Of a stretch of DNA of 20,612 nt, positions 9,651-20,581 are shown piece by piece. The translations under genes and the position numbers were made by a program. The number at the start of each line of letters is the position of its first letter. Within the stretch, counting starts at the first letter, position 1. The stretch spans positions 1 to 20,612 of the IMG/VR virus record IMGVR_UViG_3300021519_000092; one strand, 5' to 3'. The stretch comes from a virus. Under the pieces are notes generated by a model. It was not told the DNA's origin, ran no database searches, and was given only the letters and a program-made list of their open reading frames with translations.

Positions 9651-10079
9651 TTAGTCCTCCTTGAATAGATCAGTTACACGGCCCGCACGTTGCGGCGTCT
9701 GTTTGGCCCAGGCGCTGTCCAGGGCCTCTCTACGGGCCGCATTGTAATCCCTAGCCTGTAGGGCAGCCAACATCTTCTGGAACTTCAGCACCCCTCCCAG
9801 GCCCATCTGGAAGGTCATATTGGCTATGGCGCGCTGGACCCCCTGGGGCTTGGTTTCCAGCCAGGGGAGGGCCTTGGCAAGCTGCCCCTTAACCCGCTCG
9901 ATGTCGTTATCGAGCATCATCATGGCCTCATCCTCGGTAATGCCTACGTCGTCTAGGTTCCGGCCCACGCCAAGGGTGAGCTTACCAGCCGGGCACAGGT
10001 ACGGCTTTAGCCGTAGGCCCTCCTCGGCAATCAAGTCTTTTCTTAGACCTTCCACGGCACACCGTGGGACAATAGCCAA
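9651..10079 (-). CDS. Endolysin, T4-lysozyme-like muramidase with Glu-Cys-Thr triad (about 142 aa)
   Basis: Residues 19-42 align with T4 lysozyme: EEGLRLKPYLCPAG and KLTLGVGRN. The E-8aa-D/C-5aa-T catalytic signature is present as E20, C29 and T35, with Cys in the place of T4 Asp20. The rest (ITEDEAMMML, NMTFQMGLGG, SAWAKQTPQRAGRVTDLF) matches GH24 to the end. It cleaves peptidoglycan beta-1,4 bonds at lysis. The start is doubtful. TTG 10079 gives 142 residues, GTG 10055 would give 134, and TTG 10034 would start right at IAEEG. No signal peptide or SAR segment is visible, so it depends on the holin. It overlaps the preceding gene by up to 37 bases. Confidence 0.88.
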   Translation of the reverse strand: MAIVPRCAVEGLRKDLIAEEGLRLKPYLCPAGKLTLGVGRNLDDVGITEDEAMMMLDNDIERVKGQLAKALPWLETKPQGVQRAIANMTFQMGLGGVLKFQKMLAALQARDYNAARREALDSAWAKQTPQRAGRVTDLFKED

Positions 10080-10234
10080 CCCACCATTGCCAACAGAAGC
10101 CCGATCATGCCGTACATGATGGTGTTAAGGCGGTCATGGATGGCCTTGAAGGCTTCCTTGATGTCGGCATACCGTTCCGCGCATACCTCCTCATGGGAGT
10201 TAAGGCGTGTTTCGGTAACTAAGGGGTCGCTCAT
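10043..10234 (-). CDS. XhlA-like small membrane protein, probable holin accessory (63 aa)
   Basis: It starts at ATG 10234 after AGAAGG in the end of the giant gene. Residues 1-37 are hydrophilic and helical (RLNSHEEVCAERYADIKEAF, coiled-coil-like). One transmembrane helix follows (about 41-58, YGMIGLLLAMVGWLL) and a short end (SHGVPWKV). 'ETRLNSHEE ... LNTIMYGMIGLLLAMV' resembles the XhlA/hemolysin-type phage proteins: a single C-terminal membrane anchor with a cytoplasmic coiled coil, which assist holins. It opens the lysis cassette and overlaps the endolysin start. Which of the two small membrane proteins sets lysis timing is unknown. Confidence 0.55.
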   Translation of the reverse strand: MSDPLVTETRLNSHEEVCAERYADIKEAFKAIHDRLNTIMYGMIGLLLAMVGWLLSHGVPWKV

Positions 10235-10238
10235 TTAA

Positions 10239-13200
10239 CTAACCTTCTTCTTCGTTATACAAATCATACAACGCTGGGCGCTTGAGCTTCCTGGCGTTTC
10301 TAACAGCTAACTCTGGGTGCATCATTACCAAGGCGCGGTTTTTGATAGAAGAAATAGACGGCGGCTGCACCTTCTCATCAAGTGGAACACTCGGGCTTCC
10401 AAAATCAACAGCGGCCCTTTGATACTTGTCTACAAACTCTTTCATAAGTTTGTCGGCCTTCTGGCTATCGCCCTTTTCCCTAGCGGATATGCTATTCGCA
10501 AGTTTAGCTGACAGGTTTGTACTCAGCATATCTTCCGCTTCTTTGGTCCTGTACTTTAGACGCCGTGCAAAATAATCGCGCTCCTGAATAGAAGCGAATT
10601 TAGTTGGCTGGAAACCGGCCGCCTTAGAGGCGCGCTGTCCGATATTTGGTTCCGCAACCTTCATGTCTCCGCTTTGTGTGCGGTAGCCTTCAGCAGGGAG
10701 TTGTACTAGACCGCGTGCTATGTCAGACGGCCCTTTGGGGATGCCCATAGACGCCAAAGCCAGCGCCCCACCTATAGGCTGGTCTGAGTCGAACCTTTTC
10801 TTGGCTTCGATAACCTTGCCAACAGTCGCGGACAATATTGGGATGTTCATAATAGGGTTGGCGTCAGGCAGTATCTGGCCCTGGCCAATACGTTTAGACA
10901 CATCAATCCCAAGGAACCGAGCAGGGCCACGCGCTGCGGCTTCGGCCCACTCGGGACTCGCGCCGATCCCCTCAAGCATCTCGCGCATTTCGTACTCGAT
11001 CATCGGGTCAATGCCGGTCAGGTTCTTCATTATAAATTCGTAGGAATCAACAAGGTCGTCGGCAAACGGCAGACCGAGAAGGCCACCAAAGGCGGTGAGT
11101 GCCATTAGCATCATGGTCCCGGCGATCTTCCCCTCTGGCCCCGCGCTGGTCATGTTGTTCTTAAGGATACGCAGATAGTTCATGGGGTATTGCTTAAACT
11201 GAAAAGCCACACCACCAATGCCGCGCAAGGCCTCTGGCCGGTCGATCTTGCCACCAATGAATTGAGTTTCGTTCACAAAGAAGTCAGCGATATTGGCTGG
11301 CGTTAAACCAAACTGACTCTCTATGAGGCTAACCCGCGCATCGTTGGCGTACATATTCTTAAACTTGGCTATAGCACCTGGAGCTTGCGCCTCTCTGTAT
11401 GCAGCCAGCCATGCTGTGGCGCGGTTGACCTGTTCAGCCCCGTTAAACGCAGACGTTCCAACGTCGAATATGTTCCAGATAACCCTTTGTATTTTGGCAG
11501 ACTTATCGTTTCCGATTTTCTTAGATATTGATTGCCAGTTATCGGGCGACGTTCCGTGAAGGTCTTGCGTCACAGTAGGGTTAATGCGCCCTCTGTTGAA
11601 CGCATCCATAAACGCAACCTGCTCTTCAGGGCTGTTGAATTTAATTTTATTCGGGTCAAGGTTAATGCCTTTGCGTCTATCAAATGACAAGGCTCTTAAC
11701 ATATTCATAGACAGTTTGATCGTTCTGCCCGCCGCAGGTATCCCAGCCCAGCCAGCTATTTGTGTGGCTGTAATGGTCGGAGTTTGCGAAAGGTTCACAA
11801 GCGCCGAAGACGCGGACCCCCATAGGCTAGACCAGAACCCGTATTGCTTTAGCTGCCCAATCAGTTTCTCGTCGCTATCAAGATAATTGTTTACGCGCTC
11901 GGCATACTTTCTGATGTTCTCTGGAACATTCCTGCCGTCTTGTGTGCGCTCATAAGCATCTTCAGTTTGTTGACCGTACTCAACGCCAGACACAACACTG
12001 GCAGATGCGCGGTTGTAATCAATGATTGATTGCAAGAAGTCGGTGGAATACCCAGGAACATTCCTAGATTCTTTTGTAAACCCGGCACGTTGCGCCTTCT
12101 TAACTTGGTCAAGCAAGCTATCGCGCAATGCGTTCTTTACGTCAGTCTTGCCCAGCCCTGTGCCTTGAAGGGCTTCCAGAATGTTGTTCATCGCGCTGTT
12201 GCGGTCTTTCTTATCCGCAATGTTTGTCGCCGCGAGCAGCTTCTCGATTAGCGAGACATCGAGCTTCTCAATATTGTCTTTATTAATTGGGTCATTCTTT
12301 ACTTCGTAGAGAGGTTCCCCATTAGCATCAAGCTCAGGGAACTTCTTTTGAAGTTCTGCAAATTTACTTTTGATGACTTCGTTCTTCTTAACACTAGAGC
12401 CCGTGAGCCCACCCCACACGTTTTTAGTGTTGACCATCTCAAAGTACATAACTTCGCCGGTTAGTTTGTTTCTGACAGTGAATCCCTCATCACCCGCACG
12501 GCTAAACGGCACGTAATTCTCACGCGCTTTTGCGTCGGCGTAGATGGCGTTCACAAACTCTAGGTTCTTAGCGCGCTGGCTGTTGCCGTCTGCTTGGGCT
12601 TGAGCGATGGCGGCTTGGATTGCCCCGGCGTCCCACTCACCCTCATACCCCCACCGCTTACCAATGGCTTGGCCGTACTGGTTCCAGCGGGCCTTGAAGT
12701 AGTCCTTAATCCCCATGAAGATTTCAGTCTGCTCTTTATCCAGCATGAAGACTTCGCCGGGGCGACCAAGCACGCCGTTGTAGTTCTCCGGCAGGACAAC
12801 GGTGATGCGCCCGTTCCTGGGAGTAATGTTGGTATTCGTAAGGCGCGCAAACTCCATAACGGCCTCGATCTGTTTGCGAGGCTTGTATTCCAACTGAGTC
12901 ATGCGCTCGATTGGCTTTTCGCCTTCCTTAATAAGCGCGGTTTCTCTTTCACTCCTGGCTTGCAGAAGGCTCTGAAAATTAGCGATTACAGGAAAGCGGC
13001 GGGCGACACCCTGCATCATGGCGAACCACAGTACGGGGCGGGAGATTGTCTCAGACGCCAGCTTGGGCGATCCACCCGTTACCCTGTTGACGCTGTTAAC
13101 CGTATTGCTGACCTGCGCGGCGGTCTGCTCCGTGCCATCAGGGTTGAGTAATGGTTTAGCTTCTTGCCCTTTGGAGAGAGAGAACGAGCCGGAGATGTCA

Positions 13201-16200
13201 GACAGTTCAGAGAACAAATCAAACTGAGTTGGCTTGGACTTCTGTTCGGCCTTTGCTTCTTTGTAGTCAGGGAATATTTCACTGACATCAGCATTTAAGA
13301 AGCCTTCTGAAATTCTAAGAACTTCAGAGAGCGCGGTGTCTGACTTTGCACTTAACCCCAAGAACCTTCTGATTGATTCAATAAATTTAGAAAACAGATT
13401 GCCACCCTTATAGGGTATGCTTTCAAGAAAGCTCTGTGCTTTTGGATCGGTAAGCGCATAGGTTATAACTTCGTCGTTTGTAATCTCTTGACGGCTGTTT
13501 ATAAAATTATTTTTGTTTCCATAAATTGCTTTTTCAAAATCAGTAAGCGGCTCTCCTGAGTCAACTTTTTTATTAAAATACTTAATAATTCCATTTTTAA
13601 CATCAAATAAATCTTTACGAAGTCTTCCAAGATTAGTATCTGGACCGTAGTCTTTATAAACCGCTTGTCTAAACGCAGACAAAGTTGCTGCATGAATTAA
13701 TTCATGCAAAGTGGTCTTTTCGTCTGTGCCGAAATTATCTGGAGAAAGACCAACAGATTTTAAGTAAACATTAAATTTCTTATGTGGTTTTGACGGATCA
13801 GAATACACAAATCCTCTTACGCTTGTGTTTCTAATGCTTAACCATTCGGCTCTAGAAGCTGTAAAAGTTTCATTAGGTTTTATAATTTTAACACTGAACT
13901 CAACGCCAGCTTTAGAAAGCTGTTCTAGTTTTGCCAGAACACGCGAAGCTATAAGTCTGTAAGACGGATTATCAGATTTCTCCGCAATTACTTTTGCGAT
14001 TTCACTGACAGTTTTACCTTCAATCTGTTTTTCAAACTCTAAGGCTTTGCTGCGCTCTTCATCTTTCACAGTCTTTTCTTCTGACGACATAGATATGTCA
14101 GCAAATATCCTATCGGCTTCAGCGCGCTGCTCCTCAATAGTCTTCTCTTCGAGCTCTGGAGTCTGGATAGTCTCTACAAAACGCTCTTGTTTGGGAAGCG
14201 CCGCCTCTTGTGGTTCCGCCTGAATAGCAGCACGCTCGTCTGCCTCATCTCTTTCCAAAATCTGTTTCTCAGAAAGCGCATTGTCAGCGGCGCGCTGTTC
14301 TTCGGCTTCCTTTCTTAGACGTTGTGATTCAGACAGGACTCTCTGGGCTTCTCTCTGTTCCCATAATTCCTTACGTCTCTCTTTAAGCTGATAGATATTC
14401 AGCTTTTTGGTTTCTTCAATAGGAACACCAAAGGACGTATGTAAGTCTTCACGATGCTGAATAGTCTCAACATCTTCGCCCTTAAAACCGGCATTGCCGA
14501 AGATCGACTTTAACTCAGCGCGTCTATCGCGTTCTACCTGTCGCGGGTTAACGCCGCCATCTTCAGCGGCGTTAGGAAAGGTCTTCTTCGCATTAGACAG
14601 GGCGGTCTTAAACGCATCCATGTCTTCTTTAGTGTTCGCCTCCTCTGGCCCAATCTCTTTTATCGGCCCGAGGTAGCCAGCCTTTTCGGCGCGATTAACC
14701 GCCTCTCTGACTGAGATGCCATTGCCTCTAAGAAGTCCTTTGAAAGCGCCCGCGCCACCAACGTCTTCAACAAATCCAAGTCTAGGGTTAATCCCACCCT
14801 GATCTATCAAATAACCGTACAGGGACTTCACCCTAACGGCTTTAGGAAGATCGCCAACGGGGGTTAGCGGTTCGTACTTTAATGGAGCAACCGTAACCTG
14901 GGGAGCGCCCTCTCCAGTCTTAGCTTTTGTATCCATCAAGTCTGTTGGCGGCGGGGTGTACTCCATCGGAGGCGGGGCGGCAGCCTTACGAGCGGCTGCG
15001 CCTTCTTCTTCTGTGACTTCAACAGGCTTATAGCCGCGTGTCTGCTCAAGTCGGTTGGCCTCTTCTCGTTTTGAAGCGGCCAGTACCTTCAGATTATCAA
15101 CATACAACTGGTTTTCGGGCGTTATGTTTCTGCGCGCTGTTATCTTTAACGCTTCGTCTTCGTGTTCCTTTGCGGACTCTCTTAAAGCACGAACATTATC
15201 CAGCCCGGTAACATCAAGCATTGCCCCAGGCTCAACGGGCTTTAACTTTTTTCTCTCTAATCTAATTTCGGCAGTCCGCTCATCGGCCATCGACTGTACA
15301 TCAAACGGGGGCGGCTCCGCATTATCTTCAGGCGGAGCCTTCGTCAGTGGCGCGACATCCGTGTCAACTAAGTTGGGTAACAGGTCTTCAACACGGCTGG
15401 TATTGGGGCCTCCCCCAGCCGGAAGAGCCGGGTCGGTCTCATCATGCAGCGTGAATGTAGCAATAGGCACGCCATCAACATCCTTAACACTGTCAATGGT
15501 GGCGACCCTTACAACACCCGCATCGTCCTTAATGCCAATCGCGCTGCCCACCGGCCTGAAGCCAATCGTCGTGGGGTCAGCGATGTCCTTGCCGACGATG
15601 CTGCCCAAGGGCTCTGGGGGTTGTTCTTCTGTGGGTTGTTTCTGTTGGCCACCAAACGTAGCTTCAGTGCCAGCACCCAAGACGCCGCCAGCAAAGCCAC
15701 CCTTTAATGCAGAATCTATAACATCGTCCCAGTTGATTGCCTTATTTGACCCTCCGGCCTGGGCAGACGCTTGTTCAACGATTGTTTGAAGACCTTCAGT
15801 GCCGCCTTCAAGCAGGAATTGTTTAGCACCCTCTACGCCAAGTCTTTTAATAAGACTACCGCTTACATCTTTTGCGGCTTCGCCAAACATCTTCCCCAAG
15901 ATTGGTACATCAGCGACAACATCAAGAGCGCCAGCTATAGCGCCGCCGACTACCGCCGCTGCGGCACCTGTGCCGCCGCGCTTTCCGGTTTCATCTACTA
16001 TGTCGCCATATATTGATCCCATTTCCATACCGGCAGACGGGACATACGCACCAGCCGCAGAGCCGACAGCCACGCGCTTTGCAACCATTTCCGCTGCGGC
16101 TTTCTCAGCGGCATCTTTACCTAGTCCTTCACCTATTTTTTTAGCAACCATATCGGCTACTAAACTTTCGGCACCCTTGCGTGCCACGGTAGCGCCAACA

Positions 16201-16664
16201 CCACCGCTTACAAGCGACGGTATAAACATTGGTAAGTTTTCAAATATGGCATCAACCGCATATTTACCGGCGTCACCAAACCCGTGAATGTCTTTGTATG
16301 TCGGCACATCAGAAGCAAGCTCCTGAGCCCTAGCTTCTGTTTGCTTGTACTTTTCAAGCATGGATGTACCAAAGTCTTTGGCACCAACAACGTCAGCACC
16401 CAACGCGGCAAGACCGTAGCCTGTGGATTTTAACCCTTCTACCCCGCGCTCTAAGGACTTACTGATGCGCCCCTGGCCCGTGTCTTCTTCGGGCGCGGGC
16501 GGTGCGGCAGGAGCGGATTGTAAGTGAGCCAGTATTTCTTGGCTGGAATACCCAGCTTTCTTTGCGCCCTCAACATCAAATTTACGAGTTTCGGCAAGAT
16601 GACTAATGATTTCGTCATCATTATACCCAGCCGCTTTCGCGCCTTCTATGTCGAACGGAGGCAT
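10239..16664 (-). CDS. Giant virion/ejection protein of the large polyvalent type with HExxH metallopeptidase domain (2141 aa)
   Basis: Order of parts: two 20-residue N-terminal repeats (F4-L23 and F29-L48, core EGAKxAGY); Gly/Ala hydrophobic segments (about 133-160, 230-258, 320-338); a Pro-rich linker (about 340-600); a coiled coil (about 755-870); a zincin-like segment with H987-E-L-I-H991 and likely third ligand E1065; then a long alpha-helical C-terminal half with a hydrophobic stretch near 1848-1868. The C-terminal half recalls PLxRFG-type polyvalent proteins, but that name is tentative. It contains no cysteine. It occupies the place of T7 gp16 after two smaller virion proteins, so it is probably ejected with the DNA. 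The ribosome-binding site is weak. No transglycosylase motif was recognised. Confidence 0.8.
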   Translation of the reverse strand: MPPFDIEGAKAAGYNDDEIISHLAETRKFDVEGAKKAGYSSQEILAHLQSAPAAPPAPEEDTGQGRISKSLERGVEGLKSTGYGLAALGADVVGAKDFGTSMLEKYKQTEARAQELASDVPTYKDIHGFGDAGKYAVDAIFENLPMFIPSLVSGGVGATVARKGAESLVADMVAKKIGEGLGKDAAEKAAAEMVAKRVAVGSAAGAYVPSAGMEMGSIYGDIVDETGKRGGTGAAAAVVGGAIAGALDVVADVPILGKMFGEAAKDVSGSLIKRLGVEGAKQFLLEGGTEGLQTIVEQASAQAGGSNKAINWDDVIDSALKGGFAGGVLGAGTEATFGGQQKQPTEEQPPEPLGSIVGKDIADPTTIGFRPVGSAIGIKDDAGVVRVATIDSVKDVDGVPIATFTLHDETDPALPAGGGPNTSRVEDLLPNLVDTDVAPLTKAPPEDNAEPPPFDVQSMADERTAEIRLERKKLKPVEPGAMLDVTGLDNVRALRESAKEHEDEALKITARRNITPENQLYVDNLKVLAASKREEANRLEQTRGYKPVEVTEEEGAAARKAAAPPPMEYTPPPTDLMDTKAKTGEGAPQVTVAPLKYEPLTPVGDLPKAVRVKSLYGYLIDQGGINPRLGFVEDVGGAGAFKGLLRGNGISVREAVNRAEKAGYLGPIKEIGPEEANTKEDMDAFKTALSNAKKTFPNAAEDGGVNPRQVERDRRAELKSIFGNAGFKGEDVETIQHREDLHTSFGVPIEETKKLNIYQLKERRKELWEQREAQRVLSESQRLRKEAEEQRAADNALSEKQILERDEADERAAIQAEPQEAALPKQERFVETIQTPELEEKTIEEQRAEADRIFADISMSSEEKTVKDEERSKALEFEKQIEGKTVSEIAKVIAEKSDNPSYRLIASRVLAKLEQLSKAGVEFSVKIIKPNETFTASRAEWLSIRNTSVRGFVYSDPSKPHKKFNVYLKSVGLSPDNFGTDEKTTLHELIHAATLSAFRQAVYKDYGPDTNLGRLRKDLFDVKNGIIKYFNKKVDSGEPLTDFEKAIYGNKNNFINSRQEITNDEVITYALTDPKAQSFLESIPYKGGNLFSKFIESIRRFLGLSAKSDTALSEVLRISEGFLNADVSEIFPDYKEAKAEQKSKPTQFDLFSELSDISGSFSLSKGQEAKPLLNPDGTEQTAAQVSNTVNSVNRVTGGSPKLASETISRPVLWFAMMQGVARRFPVIANFQSLLQARSERETALIKEGEKPIERMTQLEYKPRKQIEAVMEFARLTNTNITPRNGRITVVLPENYNGVLGRPGEVFMLDKEQTEIFMGIKDYFKARWNQYGQAIGKRWGYEGEWDAGAIQAAIAQAQADGNSQRAKNLEFVNAIYADAKARENYVPFSRAGDEGFTVRNKLTGEVMYFEMVNTKNVWGGLTGSSVKKNEVIKSKFAELQKKFPELDANGEPLYEVKNDPINKDNIEKLDVSLIEKLLAATNIADKKDRNSAMNNILEALQGTGLGKTDVKNALRDSLLDQVKKAQRAGFTKESRNVPGYSTDFLQSIIDYNRASASVVSGVEYGQQTEDAYERTQDGRNVPENIRKYAERVNNYLDSDEKLIGQLKQYGFWSSLWGSASSALVNLSQTPTITATQIAGWAGIPAAGRTIKLSMNMLRALSFDRRKGINLDPNKIKFNSPEEQVAFMDAFNRGRINPTVTQDLHGTSPDNWQSISKKIGNDKSAKIQRVIWNIFDVGTSAFNGAEQVNRATAWLAAYREAQAPGAIAKFKNMYANDARVSLIESQFGLTPANIADFFVNETQFIGGKIDRPEALRGIGGVAFQFKQYPMNYLRILKNNMTSAGPEGKIAGTMMLMALTAFGGLLGLPFADDLVDSYEFIMKNLTGIDPMIEYEMREMLEGIGASPEWAEAAARGPARFLGIDVSKRIGQGQILPDANPIMNIPILSATVGKVIEAKKRFDSDQPIGGALALASMGIPKGPSDIARGLVQLPAEGYRTQSGDMKVAEPNIGQRASKAAGFQPTKFASIQERDYFARRLKYRTKEAEDMLSTNLSAKLANSISAREKGDSQKADKLMKEFVDKYQRAAVDFGSPSVPLDEKVQPPSISSIKNRALVMMHPELAVRNARKLKRPALYDLYNEEEG

Positions 16665-16667
16665 TTT

Positions 16668-18497
16668 TTATTGACCAAAACTATTTAAAGGCGGGCGCGC
16701 ATTAGAGCCGCCCCCAGCCAGTGGGGGCGCAGCGCCGCGCTCTTGAGTTGAAAGGTTTGTATTAAGTATAGAATACGCCCTATTGTATGCGTCGTTGTAT
16801 GCTTGGTCCTTGAGCTTTTTTAATGCTTCAGGTTTTAAACTCATATTTTTTAAATCTGCATCAACCGCCTTTACAGCTTCATCAGCTTGCTTCAGAGCGA
16901 TGGCTTTATTTAAGTCATCATTTTTTTCGACTCCAGATGCTACACGCGCAGCTTCTTGGGGAGCTAACCCCCCTTTATCTACAAGCAAGTTGTATTTGTA
17001 TTCAGCTTCTGTGGCTCTATCAGGTTTGGAATTTTTAACAGCTTCGCTTTTGTAGTAATTAATTACTGCTTGAGCTTTTTGATATTCTAAACTTCCAGGT
17101 ATTTGCGCGCTTTCATATTCTCTCTTCTTCAAATCAGCATTAGCTTGTTCAACCTTTAAGCCGCCCTGAGAAATATCCAACTGGCGATTACGCGCATCGT
17201 TGTTCAAGTCCTCACTACGCTGAGATTGCAACAACGTAGCTTGCTTCATATTTCTTTCAGCGCGTGCGGCTTTAGCTTCTTGCAGTTGTTTAACGCCCAA
17301 CATTCCACCTTGGCCGATTGAGCCAAGGAACTTGGCCCCTGGCTGCGAAGCAGCCGCCATCGTGCCCAAGCTGGCTTGAAGAAGCGCCATGTATTTGTCC
17401 TGCGACGACAACGGCTGGTCATCACTTAGCAGCTTATCCATGCGCTCTTTGTAAGCATCGGACTCTGATTGCTTACGTGCGTTCATAGCTTCCGCCGCCG
17501 CGTCTGGCTTGCCCGGTTCAACGGCTGCGGGCGGCGGAGCGGTTAAGGCTTGGGATGCGCGCTCTGCGGCCTTAGCGCGAGGGGCAGCAATGGCGGCGTC
17601 GGGCGCGGCGATTTCGGCTGCGTTTTCATTTATAGGAAACTCTTGAAAAGTCGGCTTGAAGTCTTTTAAGGATTCAAGCTGGTATCTTTCTTCTCCAGGT
17701 GCAGAATCACCCATCCGTTTTTTTCTAAGTTCTTCTGCAACAAAATCAGGGTCTTGGGTTAATTCAGAACCTGTAGAGTAATCAATAGCTTTGCGTGCAT
17801 ATGGTTCAGCTTTTTCATAAAGATAACCTACGCTTTTATTGATAGCGGAACCCAACCCCCCGAAATAATTTTCGGGGGATATGTCTGGAATTTTTGAAAA
17901 CATATCTTTTATAAGTTGAGGATTATTTCTTCCCTCACCCTCAGTGTAAAATTTCTCAGTAGCTTCTTCCTGCGTCATCTCAGGGGGGACAAGCCCTCTC
18001 AATCTTTCAGACAAAATATCTGTTCTGGGATAACCCCTACCACCGAGAAAAGAATAATCTCCCCTATTCGCACTTCTGGCGTTTCTAATAGTTCTCTCTA
18101 AATAACTCTCGCCCCCCTCCGCATACCCCTTCACCGCCCCGCCGCGCGCCATAGCCGCTACACGGCTGGCATCAGCCGCGCCCGACATCAGGGCTTCCGT
18201 GGACGGGTTCTGCGGCGCTTCCGGCGCGGCCTGACGCTGCGGGATTTCGGGCTGCTCTTCCGGCCCTTGGCCCAGCATTTCCTGGCGCACAGCGGCCATA
18301 AAGCCTGGGTCCATTTGGCTCACGCCCGTGCTGTCGCCGGTCATCTGCGGCGGTTGCGCGGGAGCGTTAGCCCCGCCCCTCATAGTGTTCAACGCCGACA
18401 TCGCGGCCATGCGCTGCTGCGGTGTTGCACGCGGATCGGTCATCATCGCCATCAGCATGTCGGGAGACTGCTGCTGTTGCATTGGATTGATCGCCAT
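16668..18497 (-). CDS. Virion-associated (internal/ejection-type) protein, 609 aa
   Basis: It starts at 18497, overlapping the previous stop by one base (TAATG), with GAGGG upstream. The N-terminus is Met/Gln/Pro-rich (about 1-115) and includes the motif GGAVKGYAEGG at 119-129. A more globular middle follows (about 130-290), then an Ala/Pro linker (about 295-345). A long helical region follows (about 350-570: YMALLQASLGTMAAASQPG, KQLQEAKAARAERNMKQ, DLKKREYESAQIPG), probably coiled coil, and the tail is Gly/Pro-rich. It has no cysteine or tryptophan. Its position between a Gln/Ala/Gly-rich protein and the giant protein parallels T7 gp15. No enzyme motif is seen. GC content varies sharply along the gene. 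Confidence 0.65.
   Translation of the reverse strand: MAINPMQQQQSPDMLMAMMTDPRATPQQRMAAMSALNTMRGGANAPAQPPQMTGDSTGVSQMDPGFMAAVRQEMLGQGPEEQPEIPQRQAAPEAPQNPSTEALMSGAADASRVAAMARGGAVKGYAEGGESYLERTIRNARSANRGDYSFLGGRGYPRTDILSERLRGLVPPEMTQEEATEKFYTEGEGRNNPQLIKDMFSKIPDISPENYFGGLGSAINKSVGYLYEKAEPYARKAIDYSTGSELTQDPDFVAEELRKKRMGDSAPGEERYQLESLKDFKPTFQEFPINENAAEIAAPDAAIAAPRAKAAERASQALTAPPPAAVEPGKPDAAAEAMNARKQSESDAYKERMDKLLSDDQPLSSQDKYMALLQASLGTMAAASQPGAKFLGSIGQGGMLGVKQLQEAKAARAERNMKQATLLQSQRSEDLNNDARNRQLDISQGGLKVEQANADLKKREYESAQIPGSLEYQKAQAVINYYKSEAVKNSKPDRATEAEYKYNLLVDKGGLAPQEAARVASGVEKNDDLNKAIALKQADEAVKAVDADLKNMSLKPEALKKLKDQAYNDAYNRAYSILNTNLSTQERGAAPPLAGGGSNARPPLNSFGQ
16709..16729. repeat. GC-rich hairpin near the end of the 609-aa gene
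   Basis: CGCCCCCA (16709-16716), loop GCCAG, TGGGGGCG (16722-16729) form a perfect 8-bp stem. It lies about 45 bases before the giant gene's start on the transcribed strand. There is no following T-run in the leftward direction, so it is not a simple terminator. It might slow the ribosome or protect mRNA upstream of the weakly initiated giant gene. It also encodes Pro-Leu-Ala-Gly-Gly, so it may be incidental. Confidence 0.45.
17857..17878. repeat. Perfect 9-bp inverted repeat inside the 609-aa gene
   Basis: CCCCCGAAA (17857-17865), loop TAAT, TTTCGGGGG (17870-17878). It sits inside codons for PENYFGGLG of the leftward gene. No U-run follows on the transcribed strand, so termination is unlikely. 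It is symmetric and could be a protein-binding or structural element, or chance in a coding sequence. Confidence 0.4.
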
Positions 18498-20134
18498 TAT
18501 GAAGCCCTCGCAAACATTCCAAGTCCACGCTTCGGCAGCTTGCCGTAGCTAGACTTCTTCAGCGAACCCTTCTTGATAGCGCCGCCTTTGGCTTTCACAA
18601 GGTTGGCTCCGGCGATAATCGTTCCAGCCGTACCAGCTACCTTACCGGCAGTGCTTCCACCAGGGACAGATGTGCTGGATGTGCTAGTTGTCCCGCCTGG
18701 GGGCGCATTGCCTACGATACTCATGCCTGTTTTTATATTTTCAAACGGTGCGGCGTTTTCTACCACAGCCTGTCCTCTGTTGGCGTCAATGACACGCTGG
18801 TCCCGAGCTTCCGTACCTTCACCAACCGCCATCAATGCGCCAGAGTCCTTTAAGGTCATACTTTGGGCGTCTTTACCCAGACCAATATTAGCTGCACCAG
18901 CCCCAAGCTGATTGGCGGCATTGGCTGTCATCAAGCTTCCAAGTCCAGCGGCAACACCGGCCTCACCTTGACCAGCCGCCAGTATACGCGACAAGTCGGC
19001 TTGGCTGGCCTGGATATTGGCCTGACCGATTGAGGACAGTCCCTGTCCAGCCGCAAGCTGACGGGCCGCGTCCGACCCGGCTAGACCGGCATATGTAGAC
19101 CCAAGGCCAGCATACGAAGTGCCAAGGTTCCCAAGTCCAGCGCCCGCGCTTTGTAGAAGCTGCTGCTGCTGGGTGCCAAGGCTACCTGCCGTAGCGCCCA
19201 ACTGGCCGTAGCGCGACAGGTCAGCCGTTGAAGCGGCAAGCCCTTGGCCATAACCGCTCTGAAGCGCCTGGGCTTGCTGACCCAGGATTGACTCCTGGGT
19301 ATCCCGCGCTGCGCGACCGATTAGATCGCGCTGGCGGGTTGAACCGTAGCCACCGGCCTTGATGAAGTCGCTGCTGATCTGCGGAAGGATATTCTCAGAC
19401 AGGTTCCGCGCCCCAAGCTGGGCAATGCGGTTGGTAACCTGCTCATTGTAAGGGTTCATGTACTGCCCGACATTCTGAGCAGAAGACTGGCCAGCGGCTT
19501 GCAGATACGGAGAAGCTGAAGACAAACCCAAGGCGTCCGTGGACTGACCGTAGAGATTACCAGCTTGGCCATACTGCCCTTGCGCTTGTTGGGCATACGG
19601 GCTGAACATACCAGCGGTGTCGGTGTTGGCCGCTTGCTCAAACATGCCTGTAGCGGCGTTAAACTGCCCCTGACCGGCTAGACCGGACTTACCTGCGGCG
19701 GCTTGGTTGTAGTATTGAGATGCCTGATTATAAGTCGGCGCACCCGCGCCATAAATGTCCATACCGGAAGCATTGTTAATATTAGCGCCACCGCGCACCA
19801 ACCCAAATTGACCAGCCCCTTGGCCAGCACGCACTTGAGCGTTGGCCGCTTCAATATCAGCGTTTGTGCCAGCTACAAGGGGTTCGCCGGTTCTTTCATA
19901 ACCACCTAATTCGTAAGTTGGATTACCACTTGCGTCTAATACAGGTTTGCCGTCCTTGTCGTATATTGGTGCATTTTTATTTTGTAGTGTTGCATTCCAC
20001 TTAGACCCGTAAGGGTTATAAGGCGCACGGTTCATTAACTTCATAAGATCAGGGAACGCCTGATTTCTAACGGCTTGCGTAGCCTCATCGGGTATGATCG
20101 TTTGTGATGTATAAGTAGTGTTATTGTCGGCCAT
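18497..20134 (-). CDS. Ala/Gly/Gln/Ser-rich virion-associated protein, 545 aa
   Basis: It starts at 20134 after AGGAG at 20140-20144. After a polar N-terminus (about 1-110) comes an extended low-complexity region with repeated Tyr-Gly-Gln and Leu-Gly units (YGQAGNLYGQS, LGTSYAGLGSTYAGLAG, GQGLSSIGQ). It contains a more conserved-looking block about 220-290 (YMNPYNEQVTNRI, NILPQISSDFIKAGGYGSTRQ, RDTQESILGQQAQAL). That block is typical of internal or tail-tip proteins next to podovirus ejection proteins. The C-terminus has GGAIKKG (517-523) and ends KRGLGMFARAS. There are no cysteines. It may play the T7 gp14-like role of a pore-forming ejected protein, but this is inferred from position and composition. 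Confidence 0.65.
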   Translation of the reverse strand: MADNNTTYTSQTIIPDEATQAVRNQAFPDLMKLMNRAPYNPYGSKWNATLQNKNAPIYDKDGKPVLDASGNPTYELGGYERTGEPLVAGTNADIEAANAQVRAGQGAGQFGLVRGGANINNASGMDIYGAGAPTYNQASQYYNQAAAGKSGLAGQGQFNAATGMFEQAANTDTAGMFSPYAQQAQGQYGQAGNLYGQSTDALGLSSASPYLQAAGQSSAQNVGQYMNPYNEQVTNRIAQLGARNLSENILPQISSDFIKAGGYGSTRQRDLIGRAARDTQESILGQQAQALQSGYGQGLAASTADLSRYGQLGATAGSLGTQQQQLLQSAGAGLGNLGTSYAGLGSTYAGLAGSDAARQLAAGQGLSSIGQANIQASQADLSRILAAGQGEAGVAAGLGSLMTANAANQLGAGAANIGLGKDAQSMTLKDSGALMAVGEGTEARDQRVIDANRGQAVVENAAPFENIKTGMSIVGNAPPGGTTSTSSTSVPGGSTAGKVAGTAGTIIAGANLVKAKGGAIKKGSLKKSSYGKLPKRGLGMFARAS

Positions 20135-20143
20135 TTCTATCTC

Positions 20144-20581
20144 CTACGCCCGTGCGCTATTTAACAAAGAGCCAAGGCCCTTTTGTTTAGGCGAGGCTTT
20201 GCGGGGATTCTTGCGACCCGCACTGCTGCGGATTTTGTGTTTGATTTCTTCAAGCCGCTTCTGGCCGGTGTCGTTGTCGCCGTTGCCGAGGTCTGAGACG
20301 GTAGCGGCGTCGATCACATGTTCGCCATTTGAAAGCAGCGCCGGGATGTCGTCGCTCTTGCCGTCGCCGGGGCCAGCAATTCTGCCGCCGGTACGGGCGT
20401 TCAGATAGCCAAACTGCGCGGCAGACATAAGCTGCGGCATGGCGGCAGACTGAGGCAGACCCATGCCAACCGGAGCAACGTCGCCACCATCGGCGTACGT
20501 TTGTTGATTAAGGCCATCCATACTTTGGTTATAAACATCCATAGGTGTAGATGCAGGGTTATTGGTTATAGTAGGGTTCAT
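20144..20581 (-). CDS. Virion-associated protein with GPGDGxSDDIPALLSxGEHVI motif (at least 145 aa, 5' end may lie outside the window)
   Basis: Residues 70-90 carry the phage motif G-P-G-D-G-x-S-D-D-I-P-A-L-L-S-N-G-E-H-V-I, followed by LGNGDNDTG. This motif is common in small phage structural proteins of unknown role. Two Gly-Gly elements (ADGGDVAP 30-37, TGGRIAG 64-70) precede it. The C-terminus is basic and ends KQKGLGSLLNSARA, like the next protein. The ATG at 20581 has no good ribosome-binding site, and the frame stays open to the window edge (codons read SSFLRPAYRA), so this may be the 3' part of a longer gene. It has no cysteine. Function unknown. Confidence 0.6.
   Translation of the reverse strand: MNPTITNNPASTPMDVYNQSMDGLNQQTYADGGDVAPVGMGLPQSAAMPQLMSAAQFGYLNARTGGRIAGPGDGKSDDIPALLSNGEHVIDAATVSDLGNGDNDTGQKRLEEIKHKIRSSAGRKNPRKASPKQKGLGSLLNSARA

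Follow-up and report, generated by a model that had tools for sequence, protein, structure and literature searches.

A cysteine-free four-gene block in a viral contig: a probable ejection set of a podovirus-type phage

The four-gene block and its place in related phages

The window analysed here is a whole viral contig of 20,612 bases. It carries a block of four minus-strand genes, called slots 1 to 4 (Table 1), the last of which encodes a giant protein. There is no cysteine in the block: a direct count over the ORFs of 2141, 609, 545 and 145 aa gives 0 in 3440 residues, as the earlier note had claimed, and its figure for the primase of the same phage (8 Cys in 773 residues) also agrees. That note had read the four as virion proteins of these lengths. 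The cysteine count stands for the smallest, which is not a complete protein of 145 residues: it must be a C-terminal fragment, since its frame at 20144 continues up to the right contig edge and the slot 1 gene has 424–453 aa in five relatives. The 609- and 545-aa proteins have no His and 0–1 Trp. Slot 1 carries a tape-measure-like motif (best E 9.9e-9 against the PHROG tape-measure families), and slots 2 and 3 have no family match in PHROG, Pfam or NCBIfam. PDB searches with profiles of slots 1–3 gave nothing convincing, slot 1 matching a tape-measure protein weakly (E 0.031). A weak profile similarity connects slot 3 with phiEco32 gp25 (E 9.5e-4). A near-DNA search in phages led nowhere, and a search for the PF12236 portal family gave 0 of 29, its controls also giving none.

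Table 1. Features of the block and its neighbours in the window, and slot 4 loci in relatives
Feature	Position	Strand	Remarks
Endolysin (phage lysozyme), after the block	9651..10079	-	Pfam PF00959; 2 Cys, a contrast to the block
63-aa ORF with hydrophobic stretch	10043..10234	-	1 Cys; no family match; perhaps holin-like
Slot 4, giant protein	10239..16664	-	2141 aa; 0 Cys; zincin-like domain and C-terminal PLxRFG (tail-700) domain
PLxRFG/tail-700 domain of giant	10425..12197	-	residues 1490-2080; NF032893 and F116 p60 homology
Zincin-like domain of giant	13230..14030	-	residues 879-1145; alignment of 33 sequences
HELIH motif of giant	13692-13706	-	residues 987-991; conserved Glu further on
Slot 3 protein	16668..18497	-	609 aa; 0 Cys, 0 Trp, 0 His
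Slot 2 protein	18497..20134	-	545 aa; 0 Cys
Slot 1 protein, C-terminal 155 residues	20144..20611	-	~440-aa protein cut at contig edge; 0 Cys
145-residue ORF inside slot 1 frame	20144-20581	-	smallest protein of the earlier note
Slot 4 locus, relative L034	11824-15192
Slot 4 locus, relative L033	11965-14031
Slot 4 locus, relative L038	11809-14607
Slot 4 locus, relative L003	7606-10254

The comparison covered five relatives, four of them about 60 kb long and one 33 kb. Their gene order is terminase, portal, scaffold-like protein, major capsid protein (phrog_371), tail genes, slots 1–4 and lysozyme; in G033 no lysozyme homologue is listed adjoining slot 4. The location of the block between tail and lysis genes is seen in these relatives, the window contig itself ending before the tail genes. 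Slot 4 holds a giant in the window and in G033, an SLT transglycosylase protein in G004 and G032 and by homology in G030, a third type in G003 and an 882-aa ORF in L003, and it is cysteine-free whichever type occupies it. The last slot is swapped among unlike proteins (the zincin/PLxRFG giant, transglycosylase proteins and others) while slots 1–3 stay. Caulobacter phage RLK, an isolate, resembles the window in having four slots, all cysteine-free, of which slots 1–3 are homologous: its gp066–gp063 (580, 333, 435 and 722 aa) have 0 Cys in 2070 aa. RLK gp063, in slot 4, gives a transglycosylase match, unlike the window giant.

Two side features of the relatives lie outside the block. Slot 1 is separated from the tail gene by a gap of 240 bp (e.g. 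L052, 13975–14240). A small plus-strand frame of about 78 codons in this gap is conserved, its changes across seven relatives being of the wobble type; the ORF filter had hidden it behind an antisense ORF. Adjoining the scaffold-like gene (L051, 19349–19942) there is a weak match to a GroES-type co-chaperonin family (phrog_3188, E 2.3e-4).

Domains and nearest counterparts of the giant protein

The HExxH motif and the downstream Glu of the giant are invariant in 33 aligned sequences; HExxH formed part of the search pattern, whereas the downstream Glu and a Gln did not. Judged by these residues, the domain is a putative metallopeptidase. Residues 881–1144 match phiKMV gp37 with 25% identity over 271 aa, and the giant finds the structure of that internal virion protein (9sfn) with E 1.2e-15. 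A profile of the domain retrieves from the PDB 9sfn (E 1.2e-61), the tetrameric ejection protein gp48 (8vb2, E 1.4e-5) and the N4 virion RNA polymerase (RNAP; E 8.8e-5 to 1.6e-4), the six best sequences being 9sfn, 8vb2 and four of the N4 virion RNAP. An AlphaFold2 model of the region (mean pLDDT 87.6) aligns best with zincins and with residues 2124–2348 of the N4 RNAP at Z 7.3–7.4, under the tool's safe level (9pnt: Z 7.3, 182 aligned, 4.4 Å), and Foldseek alone found no match to the model under 0.001. In N4 gp50 the motif reads HELVH (at 2228), and the Glu motif further on is present too. A zincin-like domain is common to the window giant, phiKMV gp37 and N4 gp50 (residues 2203–2320). In the G033 giant the middle has diverged, with HExxH still present.

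The C-terminal domain scores 142 bits against NCBIfam NF032893 (cut-off 100, E 2e-41). A PDB search with its profile gave nothing convincing, and its AlphaFold2 model (mean pLDDT 44.4) was not used. The PLxRFG giants of F116-like and other phages resemble the window giant in that this domain scores above the curated cut-off. Those of F116-like phages are mostly longer, with 0–2 Cys and often 1–2 (21 of 39 loci before clustering); F116 p59 and p60 have 4 and 1. In similar phages (L083–L117) a single, much longer frame takes the place of these two (L061, 22839–34200), and a frameshift in the F116 record is possible at this point.

The giant is like N4 gp50, the virion RNAP of the Schitoviridae, in its size, its zincin-like domain and its lack of cysteine (0 in 3500 aa in gp50), and gp50 is ejected. 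It differs in its PLxRFG domain and in that no polymerase match was found: Pfam and NCBIfam gave none, and the profile match to N4 gp50 is confined to the zincin region. The phiKMV protein is likewise cysteine-free, has the zincin domain and is encoded by the final large gene in its ejection block, but it is shorter (1337 vs 2141 aa). According to the available part of PMC10747016, the giant internal proteins of StenR_269 and the Zobellviridae are also cysteine-free and helical, and the absence of cysteine is there one ground for naming the giant a virion RNAP; the window case suggests that a polymerase cannot be concluded from this absence alone. Several unlike effector domains combined with a metallopeptidase in one chain are described for polyvalent proteins in the accessible text of PMC5512222.

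Cysteine in the block, its homologues and other virion proteins

From position-specific base frequencies, 42.9 in-frame TGT or TGC codons are expected in the block, where there are none. Avoidance of TGY as DNA was ruled out, since the remaining two frames of that strand contain 86 and 183 occurrences. Composition was taken into account by a Poisson regression in which the other 19 residues predict cysteine (cross-validated r 0.66); its training set was 121 phage proteins outside the ejection class, leaving out an 868-aa terminase ORF of G030 with 14 Cys that looks fused. It expects 13.0 Cys in the block, or 20.7 if trained on virion proteins alone, of which the giant accounts for 10.0 or 13.9, respectively. 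The 609-aa and 545-aa proteins expect so few (1.1–3.0 and 1.2–2.3) that they say little alone. Zero in the block is unlikely under any of these expectations, and the same regression gives 54.3 for the block of the window and five relatives (24 proteins, start-corrected), where the count is again 0.

The homologues of slots 1–4 keep the absence and do not have the ordinary cysteine content that the earlier note had named as contrary to its reading. All 24 distinct slot 2 ORFs (one of them cut), all nine distinct slot 3 ORFs and all eight slot 4 ORFs are cysteine-free. For slot 1 this holds in 15 of 26; the other 11 have one cysteine at residue 5–8, upstream of the shared start, in TTG- or GTG-initiated stretches ahead of an ATG that serves as the start in relatives lacking the extra stretch. 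These are treated as start-site artefacts, and the regression used trimmed sequences. Part of the upstream stretch overlaps the small conserved frame mentioned above. Near-identity of the homologues was ruled out as the cause of this agreement, as diverse homologues agree. The tail protein adjoining the block has 3–5 Cys in 20/20 full-length ORFs. At distant loci, ORFs with cysteine occur downstream of slot 2 (L015, 647 aa, 3 Cys; L025, 696 aa, 3; L020, 1017 aa, 1; L008, 339 aa, 1).

A wider search for the zincin domain kept 80 of 99 relatives. Among full-length cluster representatives of the giants, 29 of 33 are cysteine-free, and together they have 6 Cys in 72,429 aa against 283–355 expected. 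Before clustering, 48/52 full ORFs of the zincin set and 8/9 of the PLxRFG set (exception L108) have none, and cut representatives with cysteine number 4/22 and 1/3, respectively. In 39 representative loci, 77 other full ORFs of at least 200 aa have 326 Cys in 40,955 aa, and 42 are cysteine-free. Two of the four exceptions have a cysteine pair near the N-terminus (residues 55 and 67 in L183, 39 and 51 in L195), within a CPDGTxVxxNExCPE-like stretch; the pair perhaps forms a disulfide.

Known ejection proteins show a similar depletion. In reference podoviruses, hand-picked rather than random and labelled from annotation, position and background knowledge, they total 13 Cys over 17,925 aa and 16 of 24 are cysteine-free, a rate that leaves outside T7 gp13, P22 gp14, N4 gp53 and several F116 and LUZ24 rows; inclusion of T7 gp13 ('internal virion protein', 138 aa, 3 Cys) would bring T7 to 4/2399. 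Those of T7, phiKMV, P22, SP6 and N4 are nearly cysteine-free, and the N4 virion RNAP has none against 17.9 expected. Other classes in the reference phages have 30/5605 (portal), 16/3369 (capsid), 72/8952 (tail), 54/4397 (terminase) and 170/12,439 (early proteins). With F116 excluded here and from the regression, and with LUZ24 gp50/51 labelled as ejection proteins by position, the ejection proteins are lower than portal, capsid, tail and fibre proteins in 13/13 phages (13/33,381 vs 204/32,516). Further phages give 0/2956 (phiEco32 gp22–26), 0/2192 (SIO1 gp25, 26 and 26.1) and 1/3003 (BPP-1 bbp10–12), totals that omit phiEco32 gp21 ('membrane protein', 6 Cys in 343 aa) and unlabelled HTVC010P rows. 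Exceptions are the 'ejection' proteins of epsilon15 (7 Cys in 2728 aa) and P-SSP7 032/033, which hold 5. Used as a guess, a cysteine-free ORF of at least 400 aa is an ejection protein in all eight cases in T7, phiKMV, P22 and SP6, in 2/3 in P-SSP7 and in 2/4 in the examined part of N4, and it misses all of those in epsilon15.

Cysteine is also absent from some other virion proteins. The major capsid protein (301 aa) of the relatives is cysteine-free in 5/5, as are their scaffold-like protein and two fibre-like ORFs (628 and 724 aa); the terminase has cysteine and the portal 4–5. The earlier note had held that equally cysteine-free capsid and portal proteins would speak against it, and this is the case for the capsid and not for the portal. 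Its view that the absence is an independent marker of ejection has to be given up, since capsid, scaffold-like and fibre-like proteins share it. All of 12 scaffolds are cysteine-free (16.3 expected from the regression), while P2 scaffold O has 5 and the phiEco32 scaffold 1. Of eight tape-measure proteins, seven have none (the set, from 8 phages, totals 1 Cys in 7396 aa), including 4/4 from phages of Gram-positive hosts (Lactococcus, Staphylococcus, Streptomyces and Mycobacterium). Cysteine is present in T4 Alt (3/682), P1 DarB (9/2255) and the virion RNAP subunits of phiKZ (10/2165), ejected enzymes that reach the cytoplasm through long contractile tails, and is absent from T4 IP I–III and gp2. 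Given these cysteine-free capsid, scaffold, fibre and tape-measure proteins, and the cysteines in ejected proteins of long-tailed phages, absence alone is not a clean marker of ejection.

An absence of cysteine is in print for the N4-type virion RNAP. The available parts of PMC2784036, PMC3715699 and PMC3915230 give an entry-related reason, and that of PMC4837373 reports the absence in an N4-like virion RNAP without one. As both the lack and the entry idea are thus published for this protein, the window block is a new instance of it. The pattern is apparently broader than that example, and such breadth was not found in literature searches: no paper stating a cysteine rule for ejection proteins at large was met with, and "cystein", "disulf" and "thiol" do not occur in the review PMC8954989.

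Probable function of the block and possible reasons for the absence

The reading that we regard as probable is that the block encodes the ejection (internal virion) proteins of a podovirus-type phage of ~60 kb, and that cysteine is kept out of them by purifying selection. The gene order of the relatives, the homology of the giant to solved ejection proteins and the SLT or transglycosylase matches in slot 4 of relatives argue for such a set. Most likely the four proteins are located within the capsid, on the portal. At infection they would leave together through the portal and the short tail as partly unfolded chains, and would reassemble as a conduit across the envelope, with slot 4 supplying an enzyme that works on the envelope, by its zincin-like domain here and as a lytic transglycosylase in other relatives. 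In densely packed chains that are threaded through a channel and refold outside the reducing cytoplasm, a free thiol could form wrong disulfides, which would account for purifying selection against cysteine.

A different division of the block, in which slots 1–3 are tail or head proteins and slot 4 alone is ejected, is unlikely. It would suit the tape-measure-like motif of slot 1 and the want of a family or convincing structural match for slots 2 and 3, but it sits poorly with the constant four-gene order beside slot 4 in near relatives and RLK and with the similarity of slot 3 to phiEco32 gp25. Selection against thiols would be unnecessary if Ala/Gln-rich, helical or disordered chains were simply poor in Cys, Trp and His, as the scarcity of His and Trp in slots 2 and 3 and the 12 Trp-poor scaffolds without cysteine might suggest. 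We consider this improbable: the regression allows for the other residues and still expects 13–21 Cys in the block, 54.3 in the lineage set and 283–355 in the zincin giants, TGY is common out of frame, and the N4 virion RNAP, also without cysteine, is an enzyme of 3500 aa.

As to the reason for selection, the earlier note had proposed that proteins refolding in the periplasm lose thiols, which would meet DsbA-type oxidation there. The ejected T4, P1 and phiKZ enzymes, which keep cysteine, fit this proposal, and the available text of PMC3715699 offers passage through the tail and/or the periplasm as the reason in an N4-like virion RNAP. It fails as the whole reason, since the tape measures of phages of Gram-positive hosts are cysteine-free too; the 12 scaffolds, T4 IP I–III and gp2 tell against it as well, and that the periplasm is the only cause is rather doubtful. 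The cysteine-bearing enzymes of long-tailed phages favour a role for the envelope route, whereas Gram-positive tape measures and scaffolds oppose the periplasm as sole cause, and the two lines remain at odds. Selection against thiols in chains that pass through the particle or rearrange within it is in keeping with the pattern. Mobile virion proteins at large might then exclude cysteine, the absence marking an internal or mobile protein rather than an ejected one. This has a reasonable chance, if short of even, of being correct: scaffolds, tape measures (7/8) and the capsid proteins of the relatives agree with it, while the P2 and phiEco32 scaffolds do not, and in T7, phiKMV, P22 and SP6 every long cysteine-free ORF is an ejection protein.

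Beyond the block itself, we put forward more tentatively that a general rule may exclude cysteine from phage chains that travel or are remodelled within the particle, in phages of Gram-negative and Gram-positive hosts alike, set by redox inertness rather than by the periplasm, that it may predict large ejection proteins from sequence alone, and that the zincin domain may in that case be a component shared among ejection machines. Ejection proteins show little conservation and are difficult to annotate; if the rule holds, a cysteine-free ORF of at least 400 aa among the late genes of a short-tailed phage would be a cheap first guess at one. A zincin domain would also be placed in three otherwise unlike giant ejection proteins, and the passage of virion proteins through a channel and their refolding would become testable by redox chemistry.
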